Below, in pieces: positions 17,822 to 46,248 of a stretch of DNA of 61,617 nucleotides (positions are counted from its first letter, which is position 1; the number at the start of each line of letters is the position of its first letter). The position numbers and the translations under genes are program-made. The notes beneath the pieces were generated by a model. It saw only the letters and a program-made list of their open reading frames with translations. It was not told the origin of the DNA and ran no database searches. Source of the DNA: Chromatiales bacterium. GTDB lineage: Bacteria > Pseudomonadota > Gammaproteobacteria > UBA6429 > Thiohalophilaceae. Location of the stretch: NCBI GenBank assembly GCA_026984045.1, contig JALSSV010000039.1, forward strand, positions 1-61,617, in the 5' to 3' direction.

Positions 17822-18621
17822 GACACCACCCAGGCGCCGTAACCCACCACCTGATCCCGGGGGCCGGCGGTATCGCCGGAATTGCGCAGGTCGAGGGTGT
17901 GCACGTGCAGGTCGTGCCGCCGGGCCAGATCCAGCAGGCCGCTCACCGGGATCCGGCCGCAGGCCTGTTCGAAACCGATGGCCTCGGGTTCGCGCTGTTC
18001 GATGGCCCGGGCGGTGGCCGCATCCAGGCGCCTGGCGGTCTCGTAGTCGTGATAGTGGCTCAGATCGGAACTGATCACGAACAGGGTGTGGGGATCGCCC
18101 CACAGGCTTTCGAGCACTTCGCTCACCTCGCGTGCGGTAGCCTCCCCTACCACCAGCGGCACCAGCACGAAGCTGTCGAGCGCTTCCTGCAGGAAGGGCA
18201 GGTGCACTTCCAGGCTGTGTTCCAGGGCGTGGGCCTCGTCGAGACGGATCACTTGGGGAAAGCGCGCTTCCAGTGCTTCCACGGTGGCCCGATCCACCGG
18301 AATCACCCCCAGCGGCGTCTGGAAATGGGTGGCTGAAGAAGTGGCCAGACCACGGAACGGCACCCGGTGCGAGGGGCCCAGCAGCACCACCCGGCGGATC
18401 CGATCCCGGAACGGGATCAGCCGCGCATAGGCGCTGGCCGCCACCGGCCCGGAATAGACGTAGCCGGCATGGGGCGCGATGATCGCCCGCGGCGGCTCGG
18501 TCAGATCGTCCTGGCGCGCCAGGGCCGCCTGCAGATAGCCGTCCACCGTCCGCCGCAGTTCCTCGGGATCGGCGGGGTAGAACATTCCCGCCACTGCCGG
18601 TTGTCTGATAAGATCGTTCAT
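17818..18621 (-). CDS. amrB: Memo-like protein (AmmeMemoRadiSam system protein B)
   Basis: The 267-aa protein belongs to the Memo family (extradiol-dioxygenase-like fold). It contains IIAPHAGYVYSGPVAASAYA, LLGPSHRVPFRGLA, AHALEHSLEVHLPFLQ and VISSDLSHYHDYETA, the conserved His-rich metal-site segments. The ATG at 18621 (MNDLIRQPAVAGMFYPADP) is the natural start; the long frame upstream is shadow. The third usual partner, the radical SAM protein AmrS, is not in this window. Confidence 0.93.
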   Translation of the reverse strand: MNDLIRQPAVAGMFYPADPEELRRTVDGYLQAALARQDDLTEPPRAIIAPHAGYVYSGPVAASAYARLIPFRDRIRRVVLLGPSHRVPFRGLATSSATHFQTPLGVIPVDRATVEALEARFPQVIRLDEAHALEHSLEVHLPFLQEALDSFVLVPLVVGEATAREVSEVLESLWGDPHTLFVISSDLSHYHDYETARRLDAATARAIEQREPEAIGFEQACGRIPVSGLLDLARRHDLHVHTLDLRNSGDTAGPRDQVVGYGAWVVS

Positions 18622-18708
18622 GCCGTCGTAATGGTGTTGAATGCATCCCGCTTCAAGCCCCCAGCGGCCCGAATCCCCGCCATCCGTTCCCTGCATCAGA
18701 TCGAAACC

Positions 18709-19252
18709 ATGAACGACACCCCCATCCGCATCGGCATCGTCACCGTCTCCGACCGCGCCAGCCGGGGCGAATACGAGGATCTCGGCGGTCCCGCCCTGCG
18801 CGAGTGGTTCGAGAAGGCGCTGGCCGGTCCCTGGGAAGCGGTGACCCGACGAGGTGGACCGCATCGAGGAGGTGCTGCGGGAGCTGTGCGACGTGGAAGG
18901 CTGCTGTCTGGTGGTCACCACCGGCGGCACCGGGCCGGCCAAGCGCGACGTGACCCCCGAAGCCACCGAAGCGGTCTGCGAGAAGATGCTGCCGGGCTTC
19001 GGCGAGCAGATGCGCGCCGTCTCCCTGAAGGTGGTGCCCACGGCGATCCTTTCCCGGCAGACCGCCGGGATCCGCGGCGAAAGCCTGATCGTCAACCTCC
19101 CGGGCAAGCCCTCGGCCATCGACGACTGCCTGCGCGGCGTGTTCCCCGCCATTCCCACCTGCATCACCCTCATCGACGGCCCCTGGCTGGAAGTGAACGA
19201 GGACTTCATCCAGGTGTTCCGGCCCAAACACATCCCCCGCCCCGCGTCGTGA
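18709..19252 (+). pseudogene. mogA: Molybdopterin adenylyltransferase MogA, frameshifted
   Basis: Two adjacent frames together make MogA. Frame 1 from ATG 18709 gives RIGIVTVSDRASRGEYEDLGGPALREWF up to WEAVT. The next frame gives PDEVDRIEEVLRELC, VVTTGGTGPAKRDVTPEAT, GFGEQMR and LPGKPSAIDDCL. The break is at about 18843-18848, where GTGACCCGACGAG is read. Comparison with the family stretch TRLIPDE suggests an 11-nt deletion between two CCC triplets. MogA adenylates molybdopterin for cofactor insertion. It is either a real pseudogene or a sequencing error. The stop overlaps the prmB start. Confidence 0.85.
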
Positions 19253-20181
19253 GCGACGCCCCGGCCACGCTCACCCTGCGTGATCTGATCCTCGAAGGCC
19301 GCGACGCGCTCGACGGGGCGGGCGTCTGGTTCGGCCACGGCACCGACAACGCCCTGGACGAGGCCGCCTGGCTGGTCTCCCACGCCGTGGGGTTGCCGCC
19401 CGACTTTCCCGATGCCGAGCTGGACCGGGTGCTCACCCCCGGCCAGGTCCAGGCGGCCCGCGATCTCGTTGCCCGGCGCATCGAAACCCGCCAGCCCGCG
19501 GCCTATCTGATCGGCGAGGCCTGGTTCGCCGGTCTGCCGTTCTTCGTGGACGAACGGGTGCTGGTGCCGCGCTCCCCCCTCGCCGAGCTGATCGCCGGGC
19601 GCTTCCAGCCCTGGCTGGTGCCGGAGCGGATCCGGCGGGTTCTGGATCTGTGCACCGGCAGCGGCTGCATCGCCATCGCCACCGCCCTGGCCCTGCCCGA
19701 GGCGCAGGTGGATGCCAGCGACATCTCGCCCGGGGCGCTCGAGGTGGCGCGGCGCAACGTGGTCCGCCACGGCGTGCAGGACAGGGTGGGGCTGTACGCG
19801 GCGGATCTGTTCGACGGCCTGCCGGCGGGGGAGTATGATCTGATCCTCAGCAACCCGCCCTACGTGGACGCCGAAGACATGGCCGCGCTGCCGCCCGAAT
19901 ACCGGCAGGAACCGGCCCTGGGGCTGGCCGCGGGCGAAACGGGGCTGGACCTGGTGATCCCCCTGCTGCAACAGGCCGGCCGCCATCTGGCGCCGGACGG
20001 GGTGCTCATCGTCGAGGTGGGCAACAGCGCCGAGGCGCTGCAGGCGGCCTTCCCCCGGGTGCCCTTCGTCTGGCTGGAATTCGCCCACGGCGGGGAGGGC
20101 GTGTTCCTGCTCGACGCCGCGCAACTTTCGGCCCACCAGGCGGCCTTCGATGCGGCCGCCGACCGCCTTTCGCAGGGCTAA
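19249..20181 (+). CDS. prmB: Ribosomal protein uL3 glutamine methyltransferase PrmB
   Basis: PrmB N5-methylates a glutamine of ribosomal protein L3. The 310-aa protein has a helical N-terminal domain and a Rossmann methyltransferase domain with LDLCTGSGCIAIA (SAM site) and the catalytic SNPPYV motif of glutamine methyltransferases. The N-terminal sequence (RDLILEGRDAL) and the VLVPRSPLAELI segment distinguish PrmB from PrmC. The GTG at 19249 overlaps the mogA stop (GTGA). Confidence 0.92.
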   Translation: MSDAPATLTLRDLILEGRDALDGAGVWFGHGTDNALDEAAWLVSHAVGLPPDFPDAELDRVLTPGQVQAARDLVARRIETRQPAAYLIGEAWFAGLPFFVDERVLVPRSPLAELIAGRFQPWLVPERIRRVLDLCTGSGCIAIATALALPEAQVDASDISPGALEVARRNVVRHGVQDRVGLYAADLFDGLPAGEYDLILSNPPYVDAEDMAALPPEYRQEPALGLAAGETGLDLVIPLLQQAGRHLAPDGVLIVEVGNSAEALQAAFPRVPFVWLEFAHGGEGVFLLDAAQLSAHQAAFDAAADRLSQG

Positions 20182-20212
20182 CCGTAACCGGCAGCGTGCC
20201 GGGGAGAGACCC

Positions 20213-21595
20213 ATGAGCAACATCCTCTTCGACAAGGACCTCATCCGCCGTTACGACAAGGCCGGTCCCCGATACACCTCCTATCCCACGGCGGTGCAGT
20301 TCACCCCTGAATTCGACAGCGCCGCCTATCGCGCCGAGGCCGAGGCCAGCAACGCCGCGGGCGGTCCCCTGTCGCTGTATTTCCACATTCCCTTCTGCGA
20401 CACGGTCTGTTTCTACTGCGGCTGCAACAAGGTGGTCACCAAGAATCGCAGCCGCGCCGCGCCCTACCTGGAACGGGTGCACCGCGAGATCGCCATGCAG
20501 GCGGCGCTCTTCGATACCGCCCACCGGCCCGTGGAGCAGCTCCACTGGGGCGGCGGCACGCCCACCTTCATCAGCCACGAGGAAATGCGGGCCCTGATGG
20601 CCGCCACCCGCGAACACTTCCGTCTGCTGGACGACGATACGGGCGAGTACTCCATCGAGATCGATCCCCGCGAGGCCCACGGCGAGACCATCGCCGTCCT
20701 GCGCGAGCTGGGCTTCAACCGCATGAGCCTGGGCGTGCAGGACTTCGACCCCCAGGTGCAAAAGGCGGTCAACCGCATCCAGTCCGAGGCCGAAACCCGG
20801 TACGCCATCGAGACGGCCCGCGAGGTGGGCTTCAAGTCGGTGAGCATCGATCTGATCTACGGCCTGCCCCTGCAGAACGTCGAGACCTTCGATCGCACCC
20901 TCGACAAGGTGCTGGCCCTGGACCCGGATCGCCTCTCGGTGTTCAACTACGCCCACCTGCCCGAGCTGTTCAAGACCCAGCGCCAGATCCGCGCCGAGGA
21001 TCTGCCCAGCCCCGACACCAAGCTGGCCATCCTCAGCCACTGCATCGACCGCCTCACCGACGCCGGTTACGTCTACATCGGCATGGATCACTTCGCCAAG
21101 CCCGACGACGAACTGGCCATCGCCCAGGCCAACGGCACCCTGTACCGCAACTTCCAGGGCTACTCCACCCATGCCGAATGTGACCTGGTGGCCATGGGCG
21201 TCACCGCCATCAGCATGGTGGGCCGCAGCTACGCCCAGAACGTCAAGACCCTCGACGAATACGCCGAACGCATCGACGCCGGCGAGCTGGCCGTCTTCCG
21301 CGGCGTGCGGCTCGACGACGACGACGTGTTGCGCCGCGAGGTCATTTCCCAGCTCATCTGCCACTTCACCCTCGACATGCCGGCCATCGAAGACCGCTTC
21401 GGCATCGACTTCCGCGACTACTTCGCCACCGAGCTGGCTGAACTGGAACCCATGCAGACCGACGGCCTGCTGCGCCTGTCCGACACCCGGATCGACGTCC
21501 AGCCCCCCGGCAAGCTGCTGATCCGCAACATCTGTATGGTGTTCGACAAGTACCTGCGCCAGCAGAAGGCCCAGCGTTTCTCGAAGGTGATCTGA
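20213..21595 (+). CDS. hemN: Oxygen-independent coproporphyrinogen III oxidase HemN
   Basis: This radical SAM enzyme converts coproporphyrinogen III to protoporphyrinogen IX in anaerobic haem synthesis. The 460-aa protein has the 4Fe-4S motif CDTVCFYC with Cys62, Cys66 and Cys69 plus Cys71 (the same numbers as E. coli HemN). It also has [18 protein letters not shown] and the HemN C-terminal domain with [12 protein letters not shown] and [12 protein letters not shown]. The ATG at 20213 follows GGGGAGAGACCC. Nested-palindrome element A lies directly downstream. Confidence 0.96.
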
Positions 21596-21620: not shown

Positions 21621-21818
21621 GTTCCGAATTTCCTGTCATCAGGTTGTCAGCAGTACAAAGCCCCAGAGGCTGGCGAGGCGTTTCGTGACCGTCGGCCGCA
21701 AGGATGCGGCCGTCGAGCCTACAGGGAGGTATTCACGGCGTGTCACGAAACGCCTCGCCAGCCTCTGGGGCGTGCCGGAAAGTGGTTCAATAGCCGATAA
21801 TGTTCGGAAATTCGGAAC
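21621..21818 (+). repeat. Nested-palindrome element, copy A
   Basis: The outer inverted repeat GTTCCGAATTTCC (21621-21633) pairs perfectly with 21806-21818. The inner 30-nt arm at 21660-21689 (starts GCCCCAGAGGCTGGC) pairs perfectly with 21742-21771. The 52-nt core (21690-21741) contains CGGCCGCA-AGGA-TGCGGCCG. Read on the plus strand, the sense of hemN and aroC, it matches copies B and C read on the minus strand. It fills most of the hemN-aroC gap. The frame through the core is not a gene. Confidence 0.9.
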
Positions 21819-24768: not shown

Positions 24769-27330
24769 ATGCTGAGCCGTTGGTGGGAGGATCTGCGTCA
24801 TTCAGGCCTGCGTTTCCGTTACTGGGGCGCTTCCTCGATCATGGTGATCATGCTGGTGGCCGGGGCCTACAACGCGCATCGCTACATCGGCGAAGTGAGC
24901 CGGCGCAACACGGACGATCTGCAGACCCAGCAGCGGATCGGGCATCTGGTACGCCAGGTGCGCAATGAACTGTGGCAGGCGGAGACCGTACTCAATGCCG
25001 CCGTGATCACGCCTCGCATGGAGGCACCGCGGCAAATCACCGAGCATCTCGAGCAGGCGTCGGTGCTGGTTCGGCGCCTGCAGAAGATGTCCTTCCCGCC
25101 GGATGTGGCATTGCGCAAGCCCATCGACACCCTGGCCGAATTCATCGACCGGATCCGCAAACGGGTCGAGCGGCTGCTGCGCTATCGTCGCAACATCGAA
25201 TGGGTCTATCCCATGCTGCCCTTCATCGACCGCTATCTGCGGCAGAATCATGAAGCCTTCGTCACCCAGGCCGATCTGGCCCTGGACGAGATCGCCGAGT
25301 CCGAACCCACCGCGGAAAATTTCCGTCTCCTGCATGCGCTTGAACGGGTCAAGAGTCTCTGGACCAGCAAGGTGCTCGATTTCCGGGCCCTGGTGATCCG
25401 CTTCGCCGGTCTCAACGAACGGCGCTATATCGCCCAGGAACGCAACATCACCCTGCTGCAGAATCGCATCGATGCCCTGCTGGCGAAACTGGCGGCGCAG
25501 GTGGCCGCCGGCGAGGCGGGATTGCAGACCGAGGAGAGCCTGGCGCAGATGCAGCGTCTTTCCCGGGAATGGAAGCGCCAGTACGAGCGCTTCCGGGCGC
25601 TGCGCGAAACCAACATCTGGCGCAATGATCTGCATTACGTGCAGACCCGGATCCGGCCCCTGCAGAGCCAGGTCAACCAGATCATGCACGAAGTGGACGA
25701 CGCCCTGGCCGACTGGAGCGGCCAGAACGTCCGGCGCCTGCAGGCCGCCACGATTCAGTTGACCACGGAAATCTGGATTTTCCTGCTGCTGGCCGTGGGC
25801 TTCATCCTGTTCGTCTACGTGCTCGTGGACCACTCCATTCTCAAGCCCATCCAGCGCATCGCGGCCCAGATCGCGGGCGAGGGGCGCAAGCTGGATCATC
25901 TGTCCATGGAAGATTCCCGCAGCCGTGAAATCCGCCTGCTGGTGGAGGCCTACAATCACATGCGCCGCGAGATCCACCAGCGGCAGACGGCGCTGGAACA
26001 TCAGGCCATGCACGATGCGCTGACCGGCCTGCCCAACCGGGCGCTGCTCCACGATCGGCTCGAGCAGGCCATGCACCTGGCCAATCGCCAGCAGGCCGAC
26101 ATGGTCTTCGTGCTCATGGATCTGGATCGTTTCAAGGAGATCAACGATACCCTGGGGCATCCGGTCGGAGATCAGGTGCTGCAGCAGATCGGCCAGCGGC
26201 TGGCGGCGAACCTGCGGGAATCGGACACCGTGGCGCGTCTTGGGGGAGACGAGTTCGCCATCGTGGCCACCGATCTGCGGGCCCACGAAGTGCCGGCCTT
26301 CCTCGACAAGATCGTGCACGTGGTGAGCCAGGTGCTGACCGTGGGGGGACAGGATCTGTATGTGGGCGCCAGTCTGGGCGTGGCGCTCTTTCCCCAGCAC
26401 GGCCGGGATGCCGCCACCCTGATCCGGCGGGCCGACATCGCCATGTATCGGGCCAAGCGCAACAAGCGTGACTATGTCATCTACGATCCGGCCTACGAGG
26501 AAGACGGGATCGACAATCTCTCCCTGCTTGGGGATCTGCGCGCCGAACTGGACCGTCCGAGCGGCGCCCTTTGTCTGCACTATCAGCCGCAAATCGGCCT
26601 GGATGGCGATACCCCTGCCAGTGTCGAAGCCCTGCTGCGCTGGCAGCATCCCCGTCAGGGTTTCATTTCGCCCGAGGCGGTGATCCGCCTGGCTGAGCAA
26701 TCGGGGCTGATGAATCCACTCACACGGCGGATCCTGGCCCAGGCGATCGCCGACTGCGCCAACTGGCAGCCGCAGCATCCCGATCTCGGGGTGGCCGTCA
26801 ATCTCTCGGCCTGGGATCTGCAGGATCCCGAACTGCCCGAGCATATCCAGGGTCTGCTGGATCAGCATCGTCTCTCCAGTGACAGACTGACCCTGGAGAT
26901 TACCGAAAGCGCGGTGATGAGCGACCCGGTGCGCGCCCGCGAGGTCATGCAACAGCTCAATGGTCTCGGGGCGTCACTGGCCATCGACGACTACGGAACC
27001 GGTTTTTCCTCGCTCGCCTACCTCAAGCTGCTGCCGGTGGCCAGCCTCAAGATCGATCGTTCCTTCGTCATCGACATGCTGGACGACGAGAACGACGCCA
27101 TCATCGTGCGCTCGACCATCGAACTGGCCCACAATCTCGGCCTCGAGGTCGTGGCGGAAGGGGTGGAGAATGCCGAGGTGCTCGACCTGTTGCGGGCCCA
27201 GGGCTGTGATGCGGCCCAAGGCTACCATATTGCCAGGCCCATGCCGCTGGACGGCCTGCTGCACTGGCTGGCGAGCTTGAGCAGGCGCATGCCCGATTCA
27301 GACGACAGCAGCCTCGTCAGCCGAGGTTGA
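24769..27330 (+). CDS. Membrane-bound GGDEF-EAL protein
   Basis: The 853-aa protein has a first membrane helix at about residues 18-36, a periplasmic helical sensor region of about 300 residues and a second helix at about 334-353. A HAMP-like segment, a GGDEF domain and an EAL domain follow. The diguanylate cyclase motif RLGGDEF (near 490) is intact. The phosphodiesterase motifs EALLRW (near 618), DDYGTGFSSL, KIDRSFV and AEGVE are also intact, so both activities are possible. The ATG at 24769 follows AGGAAA. An upstream TTG at 24664 is less likely. Confidence 0.92.
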   Translation: MLSRWWEDLRHSGLRFRYWGASSIMVIMLVAGAYNAHRYIGEVSRRNTDDLQTQQRIGHLVRQVRNELWQAETVLNAAVITPRMEAPRQITEHLEQASVLVRRLQKMSFPPDVALRKPIDTLAEFIDRIRKRVERLLRYRRNIEWVYPMLPFIDRYLRQNHEAFVTQADLALDEIAESEPTAENFRLLHALERVKSLWTSKVLDFRALVIRFAGLNERRYIAQERNITLLQNRIDALLAKLAAQVAAGEAGLQTEESLAQMQRLSREWKRQYERFRALRETNIWRNDLHYVQTRIRPLQSQVNQIMHEVDDALADWSGQNVRRLQAATIQLTTEIWIFLLLAVGFILFVYVLVDHSILKPIQRIAAQIAGEGRKLDHLSMEDSRSREIRLLVEAYNHMRREIHQRQTALEHQAMHDALTGLPNRALLHDRLEQAMHLANRQQADMVFVLMDLDRFKEINDTLGHPVGDQVLQQIGQRLAANLRESDTVARLGGDEFAIVATDLRAHEVPAFLDKIVHVVSQVLTVGGQDLYVGASLGVALFPQHGRDAATLIRRADIAMYRAKRNKRDYVIYDPAYEEDGIDNLSLLGDLRAELDRPSGALCLHYQPQIGLDGDTPASVEALLRWQHPRQGFISPEAVIRLAEQSGLMNPLTRRILAQAIADCANWQPQHPDLGVAVNLSAWDLQDPELPEHIQGLLDQHRLSSDRLTLEITESAVMSDPVRAREVMQQLNGLGASLAIDDYGTGFSSLAYLKLLPVASLKIDRSFVIDMLDDENDAIIVRSTIELAHNLGLEVVAEGVENAEVLDLLRAQGCDAAQGYHIARPMPLDGLLHWLASLSRRMPDSDDSSLVSRG

Positions 27331-28185
27331 CAGGGCATCCAGCATCGCCCGGGCGGCGTTCGACAGGGTCCGGCGGCCATGCCACACCACCCCGAGCCGG
27401 CGTGACAGTGTCATGCCGCGGATCGACAGGGCGCGCAATTCGTTTCCCAGCATGCTCTGCGGCAACACGCTCCAGCCCAGCCCCACGCTCACCATCATCT
27501 TGATGGTTTCCAGGTAGTTGGTTTCCAGACGCACGGGGATCGTCAGCGCCGCCGGCCGGAACGCCGCTTCGATCACTTCACGGGTATAGGTTCCCCGCGC
27601 CGGCAGCACGGCCGGATGGTGGCAGAGATCGTCCGGCGTCAGCGAGGACGCGCGCGCCAGCGGATGCTCGGGACCGACCACGAAGCACAAGGGATCGGGC
27701 CAGACGATACGGCTCTCCAGTTCCGGCGGCGGCGCCACCGGCAGGGTCACGATGCCGAGCTCCCGTTCTCCCCGTCGCACCGCCTGGCAGGCCAGTTCCG
27801 AATCCATGAATTGCAGATCCAGTTCCACCTCCGGCCAGCGCGCCGTATAGGCCCGCAGCACCGGCGGCAGGCGATGCAGACCGATGTGGTGAGAGGTGGC
27901 GATGGCCAGCGGTCCGGCCACGTTGCCCGAGATTTCGCCGAGGGCGCGACGAGCCTCGGCCAGCGCCAGAAGGATGTCGCGGGCCCTCGGCAACAGTGCG
28001 CGGCCCGCTTCGGTCAGGCGCACCTGCCGTCCGATGCGATCGAACAGGGGCGCGCCCAGTTCCTCCTCGAGGTGGGCAATCCGCTTGCTGACAGCCGGCT
28101 GGGTCAGGAAGAGACTTTCCGACGCGCGGGAGAAGGAACCCTGTTCGGCCACCGCCACGAAGGCTTGCAGTTCATGTATATCCAC
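27298..28185 (-). CDS. LysR-family regulator, probably of leuCDB
   Basis: The 295-aa protein has the LysR winged helix at residues 1-60 (HELQAFVAVAEQGSFSRASESLFLTQPAVSKRIAHLEEELG, cited in part) and a substrate-binding domain of normal length. The GTG at 28185 gives the standard N terminus; longer frames would add 31 unrelated residues. It is divergent from leuC with an 82-bp gap containing an interrupted palindrome of LysR-box type. A LysR gene in the same place precedes leuC in Pseudomonas. Confidence 0.9.
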   Translation of the reverse strand: MDIHELQAFVAVAEQGSFSRASESLFLTQPAVSKRIAHLEEELGAPLFDRIGRQVRLTEAGRALLPRARDILLALAEARRALGEISGNVAGPLAIATSHHIGLHRLPPVLRAYTARWPEVELDLQFMDSELACQAVRRGERELGIVTLPVAPPPELESRIVWPDPLCFVVGPEHPLARASSLTPDDLCHHPAVLPARGTYTREVIEAAFRPAALTIPVRLETNYLETIKMMVSVGLGWSVLPQSMLGNELRALSIRGMTLSRRLGVVWHGRRTLSNAARAMLDALSTSADEAAVV

Positions 28186-28223
28186 TTGGAATGAAAAACA
28201 TGAAAATAATGAATTGGAGTTAT

Positions 28224-28244
28224 AGTGTAGCACAACGTTACACT
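28224..28244 (+). promoter_or_regulatory. Candidate LysR operator in leuC upstream region
   Basis: AGTGTA (28224-28229) and TACACT (28239-28244) form a perfect 6-bp interrupted palindrome containing T-N11-A, the LysR-box pattern. It overlaps a -10-like TATAGT at 28221-28226. A second small palindrome CTGTGT-N4-ACACAG follows at 28243-28258 and covers the leuC ribosome-binding region. Confidence 0.5.
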
Positions 28245-29840: not shown

Positions 29841-30497
29841 ATGGAAAAGTTTACGAAACTGACCGGCATCGTCATGCCCCTCGACCGGCCCAACGTGGAC
29901 ACCGATGCCATCATTCCCAAGCAGTTCCTGAAGTCCATCAAGCGCACGGGGTTCGGGCCCAACCTGTTCGACGAGTGGCGCTATCTGGATCACGGCGAGC
30001 CGGGCATGGACAACAGCCAGCGGCCGATCAACCCGGACTTCGTGCTCAACCAGCCCCGTTACCAGGGCGCGCAGATCCTGCTGGCGCGGGAAAACTTCGG
30101 CTGCGGCTCGTCCCGGGAACACGCCCCGTGGGCGCTGCTCGACTATGGCTTCCGGGTGATCATCGCGCCGAGCTTCGCCGACATCTTCTACAACAATTGC
30201 TTCAAGAACGGCATCCTGCCCATCGTGCTGGATGCCGAAACGGTGGACGAACTGTTCCGCGAGGTGGAGGCCAATGAGGGTTATCAACTCACCGTGGATC
30301 TCGAAAGGCAGACCATCACCAAGCCCGACGGCACGGTGATCCCCTTCGAGATCGACGAATTCCGCAAGCACCGCCTCCTCGAAGGCCTCGACGACATCGG
30401 CCTGACCCTCGAACACGCCGATGAAATCCGCGCCTACGAGGCACGCCGAAAAAAAGCGGCGCCGTGGCTGTTCGTCCACTTGTCGGGGTCGGTGTAA
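29841..30497 (+). CDS. leuD: 3-isopropylmalate dehydratase small subunit LeuD
   Basis: The 218-aa swivel-domain subunit of isopropylmalate isomerase. It begins [31 protein letters not shown] (cited in part) and has [16 protein letters not shown] and [23 protein letters not shown]. These are the signatures of bacterial LeuD. Start ATG after AGGAGTAACGGAT. Pairs with LeuC. Confidence 0.97.
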
Positions 30498-30499
30498 GG

Positions 30500-30631
30500 A
30501 ACGCAGAGGGCGCAGAGGCGCAGAGTTCGCAGAGAAGTTCATGCCGGTGAATGCGACGGTCCACAGGCCCATGATCCATCGTGATCAAGCATGCCACTCG
30601 GCGTCCTCTGCGTCTCTGCGCCCTCTGCGTT
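30500..30631 (+). repeat. CGCAGAG-type inverted repeat between leuD and leuB
   Basis: The left arm 30500-30525 is complementary to the right arm 30606-30631 at 25 of 26 positions. It fills the leuD-leuB gap in the same way that the related repeat fills the leuC-leuD gap. Folding in the transcript would give a long stem just upstream of the leuB ribosome-binding site. Confidence 0.82.
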
Positions 30632-30662
30632 ATTTCCACCCAACCATCAGGAAACAGAACAG

Positions 30663-33988: not shown

Positions 33989-34110
33989 GCTATAGTTACT
34001 GCATACTTATAAAGATTATTCAAAGATAGATTCCGCAACTCATTGAATTATTTGGAAAAATGAGGGCACGCTGTCGGCGTGGACAGATCCCCCTAAGGAG
34101 TGGAGACGTA

Positions 34111-37100
34111 ATGATGATGCGCAAGCTGGTCGTTTTCCTGGCCACCGCCCTTTTGCTCATGCCGCTCGGCGCCCAGGCCCTGGGCTTCGGCCGGATCGTT
34201 GTCCATTCGGCGCTCGACGAACCCCTCGATGCCGACATCGAACTCATCTCCCCGACGCCTGAAGACATCACCAATCTCAAGGTCAAGCTCGCCTCTCCCG
34301 AAGCCTATCTGCGTGCCGGGATCGACCGCTCCTATCTGCTCGGGGATCTGCGATTCCGCATCCGCCAGGACGAGCAGGGCAAGTACTATCTCCACGTCAG
34401 CAGCAAGCAGCGGATCAAGGAGCCGTTCCTCGACTTCCTGCTCGAGATGAACTGGCAGAACGGCCGCATGGTGCGGGAGTACACCATCCTGCTGGATCCG
34501 CCCAACCGCATCGAACGTCAGCCGGCGATGGTCGAAGCCCCGGCAACGCAGGCACCAACGCAGGCCCCGGAGCCGGTGCCCGCCCCGATTCCGGCGCCGG
34601 CCGCGACCACCGAGCCGGCACCGGCCCCCGCCCCGGTCGCCGAAGCCCCGGCGGAAGCCGCACCGGCCGAGACACCGGCAGCAGCGGAGGAGCCTTTCCC
34701 GCGCACCGAAATGAAGGAGGCCGAGGTGCCGGCTGAACCGGCCCCGGCCCCCGTCGCCGAGGCGCCGGCCCATGAGGCCGTGGCCGAAGCCCCGGCTCCG
34801 GCTCCCGAACCCGTGACGGAAACGCCCGTGCCGGCGCCTGAAGCGGCGATGCCCGCGCCGGCCACCGAGCCCGAGCCGGCCGAACCGGCCCTTGCTGCCG
34901 AAGAGGAGGAACTCTTTCCCCGAATTCCCCTGGCCGAGTTCGCCAAGGCCGCACGGGCCGCGCCCGCGCCGGTGACCGGTGAGCTGGACTACGGCATCGT
35001 GCAGAAGGGCGACACCCTGTGGAAGATTGCCGAGAAGCTGCGGCCCAGCGATTCGGTGTCCATCTACCAGGTGATGATGGCCCTGCTGGTGAGCAACCCC
35101 GATGCCTTCGTCGACGGCAACATGAACCGGCTCAAGGTGGGACACGTGTTGCGCATCGACGATCCCGACATCATCACCTCGGTCAATCCCCGCGAGGCGG
35201 AGATGGAATACCGCGCCCAGCTCCAGGCCTGGCAGGACTACCGGCAGAGCGTGGCCGGCGAGACGCCGGCCGAAACCCAGCCCGTGGTGGCCGGCGAGGC
35301 TGCCGCCGGTGAGACGCAGACCGAGGGCGGTACCGGTGAGCTGACGCTGGCCTCGCCGGATGGGGGCGAACTGCAGGCCGGTACCGGCACCAGCGAAGAG
35401 GCGGCCCGCAACGAATTGTTGACCCTGCGCGAGGAACTGCGCCAGCTGCGCGAGGACAGCGCGGCCATGGGCGGCCACAATGAACAGCTCAACCGCGAAC
35501 TGCAGGCCCTGGAAGAGGAAATCAACCGCAAGCAGCGGGCCCTGTCGATCAGCGACGATGAACTGGCGGCCCTCCAGCAGCAACTGGCCAGCGCCCGGGA
35601 AGCGGCGGCCCGGGCGGAACCGTCAGCCACGGCGGCAGCCGAAGCGCCGGCCAGCGAGACGGGGGCCGGTGAAGTGGGCGAGCAACCCCCTACGACCGAG
35701 TCGCCGGAACCGTCGGCACAGGCCGAAGCCGAAGCGCCGCAACCGGCCGAGAGCGCCGGTGAAGCGGGGGCCGAACCGTCCGCCGACGCTGCACCTGCGG
35801 GCGAAGCGGTGGCCACGGCCGAGACCAGGTCGCCGGTCGAGCTGGCCGAGGAGATCGCCCAGCGCGAGGAACAGCGACCGCAGGCCGCCCCGGCTCCGGC
35901 CGCGCCCGCCGCCCAGGACGAAGGCGGCATCCTGCAGACGGTCATGGGTGTGGTGGCCGGGATCGGCGACGGCCTGCGGGGCGCGTTCGGGGGCCTGCCC
36001 GGCAACTCCCTGCTGATGTTCGTGGGGCTGCCGGTGCTGCTGGTGCTGCTGCTGATTGCGGCCATCGTCATTCGCCGGCGACGCTCGGCTGAGGACTACC
36101 AGGAAAGCATTCTCACCGGAGAACCGGCCGCCGCGGCCGCCGCCGGCGCGGCGGCCGGCGCCGCGGCCGGTCCCGAGTCCGAGGAGGAGTCGTCCTTCCT
36201 GAGCGACTTCGCGGTCAGCGGCGCCGGCGCCATCCAGACCGAGGACAGCGAGGTCGATCCGCTCACCGAAGCCGACGTGTTCGTCGCCTATGGCCGCTAC
36301 GAGGCCGCCGAGGAGCGCCTCAAGGAGGCCATCGAGAACGATCCGAATCGTGCCGAGCTCAAGCTCAAGCTCATCGAGCTTTACCACACCACCAAGAACA
36401 AGCCGGCCTTCGAGAACGCTGCCGAGGAGTTCTATGCCAGCCTCGGTGAGGGTGCGGACGACAATCCCATGTGGCAGAAAGTGGTGGCCATGGGGGCCGA
36501 GCTGGTGCCCAACAACCCGCTGTTCAGCAATGCCGGCAGTGCCGCGGCCGTCGAGACAGCGGCCGAAGTGGCGGCCTCGGATACCTCGAGTGCCGGTCTC
36601 TCCGACAGCCAGGTGATGGACATCGGCCTCGACACCGGTGTCTTCGACGTGGCCGATCTGGGTACGGCCGAGCCCGAGCCCAAGCCCAAGGCCGAAACCC
36701 CCGTCGATGCCATGGATTCGGGGGTGATGGAATTCACGCTGGATACGGAACCGTCGCAGGCCGCAGGAGAAGAACCCGCTCCCGAAGCCCAGGCTGCCGC
36801 GGGCGAGGAGAGCAGCCTGGAATTCAACCTGGATCTGGAAACCCCGACCGAATCGCCGGCACCCGCGAAGGAGGCGCCGGCGGCCGACAGCGGTCTCGAC
36901 TTCAATCTCGACATGGCGCCGGAGGCCGGTGCCGAATCGGCAGAAAAGTCCGGCGAGGCCTCCCTGGACTTCAACCTCGAAGTGGACGAGGCACCTACTG
37001 CCCAGTTGACGGCCGAGGCGGCCGCCGAAGCGGGGCTCGACTTCAACCTCGAGGGCGAGAGCGGCAAGGAGGATTCCGGTGCCCTCGACTTCGATCTGGA

Positions 37101-37458
37101 CCTGGGGGGACAGGCCCCGGCCGGCGACGAGGACGAGACGGCGGAAATGAGCCTCGATCTGGAAGCCCCGGTCACGGAGGAACCCTCTGCCTCCGATACC
37201 AGCATGGCCATCGACATCAGCGACGACAGCACCGCCACCATGCCCGAGCCCAGCGGCATGGACTTCGAGCTGGATGCCACCGATGCCAGCTTGGACATCG
37301 GCACCGGCGACGAGGTGGGCACCAAGCTGGATCTGGCCAAGGCCTACATCGACATGGGCGATCCGGAAGGCGCCCGCAGCATCCTCGACGAGGTGCTCGA
37401 CGAAGGCAACGAGGAACAGAAGCAGGAGGCCCAGCAACTGCTGCAGCAGATTGCCTGA
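34111..37458 (+). CDS. fimV: Polar hub protein FimV
   Basis: FimV is a peptidoglycan-binding polar landmark needed for type IV pilus function and cAMP signalling. The 1115-aa protein has a signal peptide (MMMRKLVVFLATALLLMPLGAQA, cited in part), the FimV N-terminal domain and an Ala/Pro/Glu-rich spacer. A LysM domain (about 293-350), a coiled coil, a membrane helix (about 633-655) and an acidic cytoplasmic part follow, with repeated LDFNLD motifs. It ends in the C-terminal TPR-like domain (LAKAYIDMGDPEGARSILDEVL). The ATG at 34111 follows TAAGGAGTGGAGA. The 122 bp upstream are strikingly AT-rich and probably hold its promoter. Confidence 0.94.
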   Translation: MMMRKLVVFLATALLLMPLGAQALGFGRIVVHSALDEPLDADIELISPTPEDITNLKVKLASPEAYLRAGIDRSYLLGDLRFRIRQDEQGKYYLHVSSKQRIKEPFLDFLLEMNWQNGRMVREYTILLDPPNRIERQPAMVEAPATQAPTQAPEPVPAPIPAPAATTEPAPAPAPVAEAPAEAAPAETPAAAEEPFPRTEMKEAEVPAEPAPAPVAEAPAHEAVAEAPAPAPEPVTETPVPAPEAAMPAPATEPEPAEPALAAEEEELFPRIPLAEFAKAARAAPAPVTGELDYGIVQKGDTLWKIAEKLRPSDSVSIYQVMMALLVSNPDAFVDGNMNRLKVGHVLRIDDPDIITSVNPREAEMEYRAQLQAWQDYRQSVAGETPAETQPVVAGEAAAGETQTEGGTGELTLASPDGGELQAGTGTSEEAARNELLTLREELRQLREDSAAMGGHNEQLNRELQALEEEINRKQRALSISDDELAALQQQLASAREAAARAEPSATAAAEAPASETGAGEVGEQPPTTESPEPSAQAEAEAPQPAESAGEAGAEPSADAAPAGEAVATAETRSPVELAEEIAQREEQRPQAAPAPAAPAAQDEGGILQTVMGVVAGIGDGLRGAFGGLPGNSLLMFVGLPVLLVLLLIAAIVIRRRRSAEDYQESILTGEPAAAAAAGAAAGAAAGPESEEESSFLSDFAVSGAGAIQTEDSEVDPLTEADVFVAYGRYEAAEERLKEAIENDPNRAELKLKLIELYHTTKNKPAFENAAEEFYASLGEGADDNPMWQKVVAMGAELVPNNPLFSNAGSAAAVETAAEVAASDTSSAGLSDSQVMDIGLDTGVFDVADLGTAEPEPKPKAETPVDAMDSGVMEFTLDTEPSQAAGEEPAPEAQAAAGEESSLEFNLDLETPTESPAPAKEAPAADSGLDFNLDMAPEAGAESAEKSGEASLDFNLEVDEAPTAQLTAEAAAEAGLDFNLEGESGKEDSGALDFDLDLGGQAPAGDEDETAEMSLDLEAPVTEEPSASDTSMAIDISDDSTATMPEPSGMDFELDATDASLDIGTGDEVGTKLDLAKAYIDMGDPEGARSILDEVLDEGNEEQKQEAQQLLQQIA

Positions 37459-46071: not shown

Positions 46072-46248
46072 TTCAACGCAAAGGGCACAAAGAGGATTTT
46101 GAATCATCGGTGCACACGGACAACGCCCTGTAGGAGCGGCGCCTCGCCGCGACATTGCGGTTGCTGCTTTCTGCCCGCTACCCGCTACCGCCGAATCGCG
46201 GCGAGGCGCCGCTCCTACGGAAAATCTCCTTCGCGCCTTTGCGTTGAA
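46072..46248 (+). repeat. Nested repeat: REP hairpin inside a second inverted repeat
   Basis: The outer arms TTCAACGCAAAGG (46072-46084) and CCTTTGCGTTGAA (46236-46248) pair perfectly. Inside them, 46130-46152 (GTAGGAGCGGCGCCTCGCCG plus CGA) pairs perfectly with 46196-46218, which is the REP family seen at 4007. Two repeat types are therefore stacked here, filling the first half of the 348-bp purF-metZ gap. Confidence 0.82.

Follow-up and report, generated by a model that had tools for sequence, protein, structure and literature searches.

Whether the molybdopterin adenylyltransferase gene mogA of a Chromatiales bacterium (Thiohalophilaceae) has been broken by a deletion, or merely appears broken in its draft assembly, is the question raised by contig JALSSV010000039.1 of assembly GCA_026984045.1. 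The DNA studied here (the window) is a stretch of 61,617 nt. It belongs to a draft assembly that spans 2,982,687 bases over 104 contigs, with a completeness of 99.26% and a contamination of 0.26%. Within the collection used, the genus comprises two genomes, namely that of the window and one congener. The mogA sequence of the window offers no single continuous frame from its start codon, and the change of frame falls at 18843-18848. The gene is arranged as follows.

18709-18849, + strand: 5' part of mogA, with the ATG and roughly 45 initial MogA codons (a 47-codon stretch was scanned)
18843-18848, + strand: junction, with a net loss of 11 nt relative to the congener and a change of frame, placed by DNA alignment
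18845-19252, + strand: 3' part of mogA in the next frame, with both catalytic Asp codons and the TGA end, assigned by its NF006932 match

The initial annotation had described a mogA lying in two frames and lacking 11 nt, and profile matches together with the congener alignment bear out the identity, the net loss, and the frame change. Translation of the ATG frame from 18709 matches NF006932 (molybdopterin adenylyltransferase; length 193) over profile positions 4-45 with 50.7 bits (E 1.4e-13). The second frame, from 18854 to 19249, covers positions 52-189 with 199.9 bits (cut-off 158), so that the family profile is split over the two frames. At the DNA level, the alignment with the congener contains a single 11-nt gap at the junction, and both flanks align. 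Past its first codons, mogA is otherwise free of gaps, and no stop or further indel occurs in the C-terminal part, in agreement with the earlier view that the remainder of the gene is intact. In the protein alignment, the five congener residues TRLVP sit between the last aligned N-terminal residue and the aspartate at the junction. The proline codon is retained in the window, which leaves about four residues lost, the number first proposed. This aspartate (codon 18848-18850) is invariant in all 24 outgroup sequences. The intact MogA of the congener aligns with E. coli MogA (1DI6) at E 4.9e-60, with congener residue 6 matching residue 4 of 1DI6, and by this offset of two the junction aspartate would be the equivalent of Asp49. 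The codons for the Asp49 and Asp82 equivalents are present in the DNA 3' of the break, and the frame of the ATG does not read them. According to the review PMC9458074, MogA is impaired by substitutions at Asp49 and Asp82, and the homologous residues are of critical importance in the adenylylation of molybdopterin (MPT).

One detail of the initial annotation was not shown, namely that the deletion ran between two CCC triplets. The gap can be placed in exactly two ways that leave no mismatch with the congener. Since the gap slides by only 1 nt, the deletion ends share a single base in this comparison. A repeat of 3-4 nt at the ends requires an ancestral ACC threonine codon. Such a codon is likely from local usage, given that, over eight stretches of the window, 139 of 173 threonine codons are ACC.

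A survey of relatives found no such break outside the window genome. MogA matches were found in 34 of the 39 other genomes searched, including 23 of 24 from the same family; the sole same-family genome without a match is 70% complete. Matches outside the family were mostly weak, as would be expected, in our reading, of MoaB-like proteins. The loci taken from the MogA search were the best 80 of 519 confirmed places. Altogether, 112 loci were examined, two of which were the window itself and three of which gave no match (L001, which is MoeA, L030, and L032). The remaining 107 represent 103 distinct sequences, and among them L029 and L031 are distant homologues. In all 107, the C-terminal block runs upstream in one open frame for at least 42 codons, with the frame reaching the edge of the locus in two cases (L072 and L082). 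None is broken at this place; the frame-breaking indel is absent from relatives, as in a frameshift pseudogene.

This uniformity also bears on two readings in which the gene would still function. Both parts of mogA are conserved at the protein level, as would suit a programmed +1 shift that joins them into a working MogA. Such recoding is nonetheless very improbable, as the relatives, all in one frame, need no shift, and the residues missing beside the catalytic aspartate would still be missing after it. In a second arrangement, the C-terminal part would be made separately and cooperate with the N-terminal piece, and a 132-codon frame with a GTG start at 18854 does exist. This start lies 3' of the catalytic Asp codon at 18848-18850, the N-terminal part is missing from such a product, and no relative locus is split, which makes separate production hardly credible.

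Selection has acted strongly on the sequence beyond the break. Across the C-terminal part (18848-19249, 134 codons), 39 synonymous changes and 6 nonsynonymous ones separate the window from the congener, which corresponds to a dS of 0.533, a dN of 0.020, and a dN/dS of 0.038. The N-terminal part (40 codons) gives a dN/dS of 0.151. When amino-acid changes were polarized, one of five in the C-terminal part fell on the window lineage and four were ambiguous, and two of nine in the N-terminal part fell on the congener lineage with seven ambiguous. Without any selection on the C-terminal part over the whole of the window's half of the divergence, our arithmetic predicts some 80 nonsynonymous changes there. 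Such strong constraint means that the break, if real, is recent, as the initial annotation had suggested. Even with all six changes assigned to the window lineage, its age would be less than roughly 15% of that branch. The same low ratio would fit equally a mogA that was never broken.

The genome appears to retain a use for the cofactor. The initial annotation had proposed searches for another mogA or moaB and for molybdoenzymes, and both were carried out. A search with the PF00994 profile revealed no further MogA or MoaB in the genome, where the two matches are mogA itself and MoeA. The other pathway proteins scored as follows: MoaA 382.0 bits (cut-off 284.05), MoaC 206.8 bits (cut-off 141.5), MoeA 591.9 bits (cut-off 440), and MobA 234.8 bits (cut-off 151.85). 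MoaE exceeded its Pfam cut-off and fell below the NCBIfam equivalog cut-off (134.3 vs 175). On the side of demand, PF00384 has seven matches in the window genome and five in the congener. The periplasmic nitrate reductase NapA reached 1559.9 bits against a cut-off of 904. NuoG, which is no molybdoenzyme, also lies above its cut-off. For three more frames of considerable length (886, 954, and 999 codons from stop to stop), the top-scoring profiles are formate dehydrogenase, NapA, and PhsA, and none of these scores reaches its cut-off. Two contig ends (C28, 17556-17883; C43, 60283-61381) each bear a piece of a molybdopterin oxidoreductase gene, and the two pieces, of 587 and 208 codons, may come from a single gene that the assembly has divided.

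The reading frames of MoaA, MoaC, MoaE, MoeA, MobA, and NapA are uninterrupted along almost the full length of their profiles; the cofactor thus seems to be still in demand, and on the basis of these six genes a general decay of molybdenum use is rejected. The molybdate-uptake gene modA was considered as a further sign of decay and set aside. It has no match in the window genome, and the congener likewise lacks one, so that its absence is not specific to this lineage. Among the 25 genomes compared, counting that of the window, 12 carry modA above the family cut-off.

The retained pathway and molybdoenzyme genes make a fixed loss of mogA unlikely, and thereby favor either an artefact or a variant carried by a minority. 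An assembly or consensus error, in which the organism's mogA is intact and 11 nt were dropped, is a serious contender, although we hold it to be the less probable case. The open pathway and NapA, the strong past constraint on mogA, the draft state of the genome, and the molybdoenzyme-like gene that two contig ends seem to interrupt all agree with it. The character of the loss speaks against it. Consensus errors usually concern one base in a homopolymer, unlike a clean loss of 11 nt, and the alignment reveals no long repeat at the junction. Comparison of 20 genes with the congener, over about 16.3-37.5 and 42.8-47.3 kb of the window, found mogA to be the only one split; the other 19 have no frame break, and on this ground a poor local assembly with many such breaks was rejected. 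These genes were picked by eye from tblastn lists, taking the longest plausible frame at each place. An unsplit frame (c12, 27319-28224) was left out of the 20. Two-frame matches around 37.46 kb (c83, c110, and c24), where a long gene ends at 37455, were set aside, as was one antisense frame over 44.3-46.2 kb. In the compared gene at 34030-37455, the alignment leaves out residues 1-293 of the 1161 in the congener protein. On balance, we lean towards a real and recent deletion in mogA, either fixed or polymorphic.

If the deletion is real, it would act through its position, just upstream of the first catalytic aspartate codon in the only mogA found. Ribosomes starting at 18709 would read about 45 MogA codons, then pass out of that frame and continue into prmB without a stop, and no active MogA product would be expected. 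Adenylylation of MPT is then predicted to fail or fall, and MoeA could insert molybdenum only to a limited extent unless molybdate were abundant. Such a deletion would be recent, and either all or only some members of the population might carry it. PMC11434336 describes the E. coli mogA mutant as molybdate-repairable, and PMC9458074 attributes the repair to excessive molybdate in the medium. Loss of mogA may thus be tolerated where molybdate is plentiful. The impaired cofactor maturation that was first proposed therefore remains plausible as an outcome, but it may be conditional rather than general.

The course of the shifted frame, a point missed by the initial annotation, involves the next gene. 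The features that surround mogA are listed below.

17830-18621, - strand: AmmeMemoRadiSam system protein B, a divergent neighbor (TIGR04336, 264.8 bits)
18709-20181, + strand: continuous 490-codon frame made of the MogA N-terminal part, an off-frame stretch, and PrmB, translated without internal stop
19249-20181, + strand: prmB (ribosomal protein L3 glutamine methyltransferase), with a likely GTG start overlapping the mogA TGA

From the ATG at 18709, the shifted frame meets no early stop and stays open through into prmB, which contributes 310 of the 490 codons from its GTG at 19249. The stop of mogA and the start of prmB overlap as GTGA at 19249-19252, and PrmB matches TIGR03533 with 372.3 bits over 19252-20178. 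In the same-family loci examined, prmB follows mogA in 23 of 23; it was not found in the stretches around L026 and L027, the two MogA loci that belong to other families. A scan of 18560-20300 returned a single promoter-like site, inside prmB, with no promoter before mogA and no terminator, an uninformative outcome. In the 180 codons that precede the stop of mogA, the same relative frame contains no stops in the congener and 4 to 21 stops in the other 22 same-family loci. Because the equivalent frame of the congener is also free of stops, the fusion frame follows from a property of the genus and gives no evidence of selection. Upstream of mogA, the congener (L033, about 1090-1830) has additional sequence separating mogA from the memo-like gene, which is absent at 18622-18708 of the window and may encode a DUF481-type protein.

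A real deletion might also alter the supply of PrmB. In an extended form of this proposal, mogA and prmB would constitute one translation unit, with PrmB arising as a long chimera or from fresh starts only, and molybdenum would be inserted independently of MogA in a molybdate-rich setting. We consider this combination unlikely. Were it true, ribosomes that had left the MogA frame would enter PrmB in frame and skip the overlapping TGA.

Several inverted repeats occur elsewhere in the window. Upstream of aroC, at 21660-21771, two 30-nt arms form a perfect inverted repeat around a spacer of 52 nt. In the congener, similar sequence occurs on six or more other contigs, and the repeat looks like a dispersed palindromic element. 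Two further long inverted repeats, at 30486-30645 (arms of 49 nt) and 46130-46218 (arms of 35 nt), have many short matches elsewhere in the congener.

The significance of the locus depends on which reading applies. A real deletion would represent a natural loss of mogA in a bacterium that retains a periplasmic nitrate reductase and the other cofactor genes sought. It would serve as a test of whether MogA is dispensable where molybdate is abundant. An artefact would instead caution against labeling this species as cofactor-deficient. In either case, existing knowledge of MogA is unchanged, and the event is common in kind. No matching mogA frameshift case was recognized among the titles and abstract openings of the literature consulted.

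Compared with the MogA family (NF006932, E. coli 1DI6, and the Cnx1 G domain), the mogA of the window shares the sequence, the order of motifs, and, in its DNA though out of frame with the start codon, both catalytic Asp codons. It differs in its two frames, in the absence of about four residues just before the Asp49 equivalent, and in the lack of a continuous product. Recent bacterial frameshift pseudogenes typically carry one small indel in a gene that is otherwise conserved and that is intact in relatives. The mogA of the window resembles them in each of these respects. Unlike them, its shifted frame meets no early stop and enters prmB.
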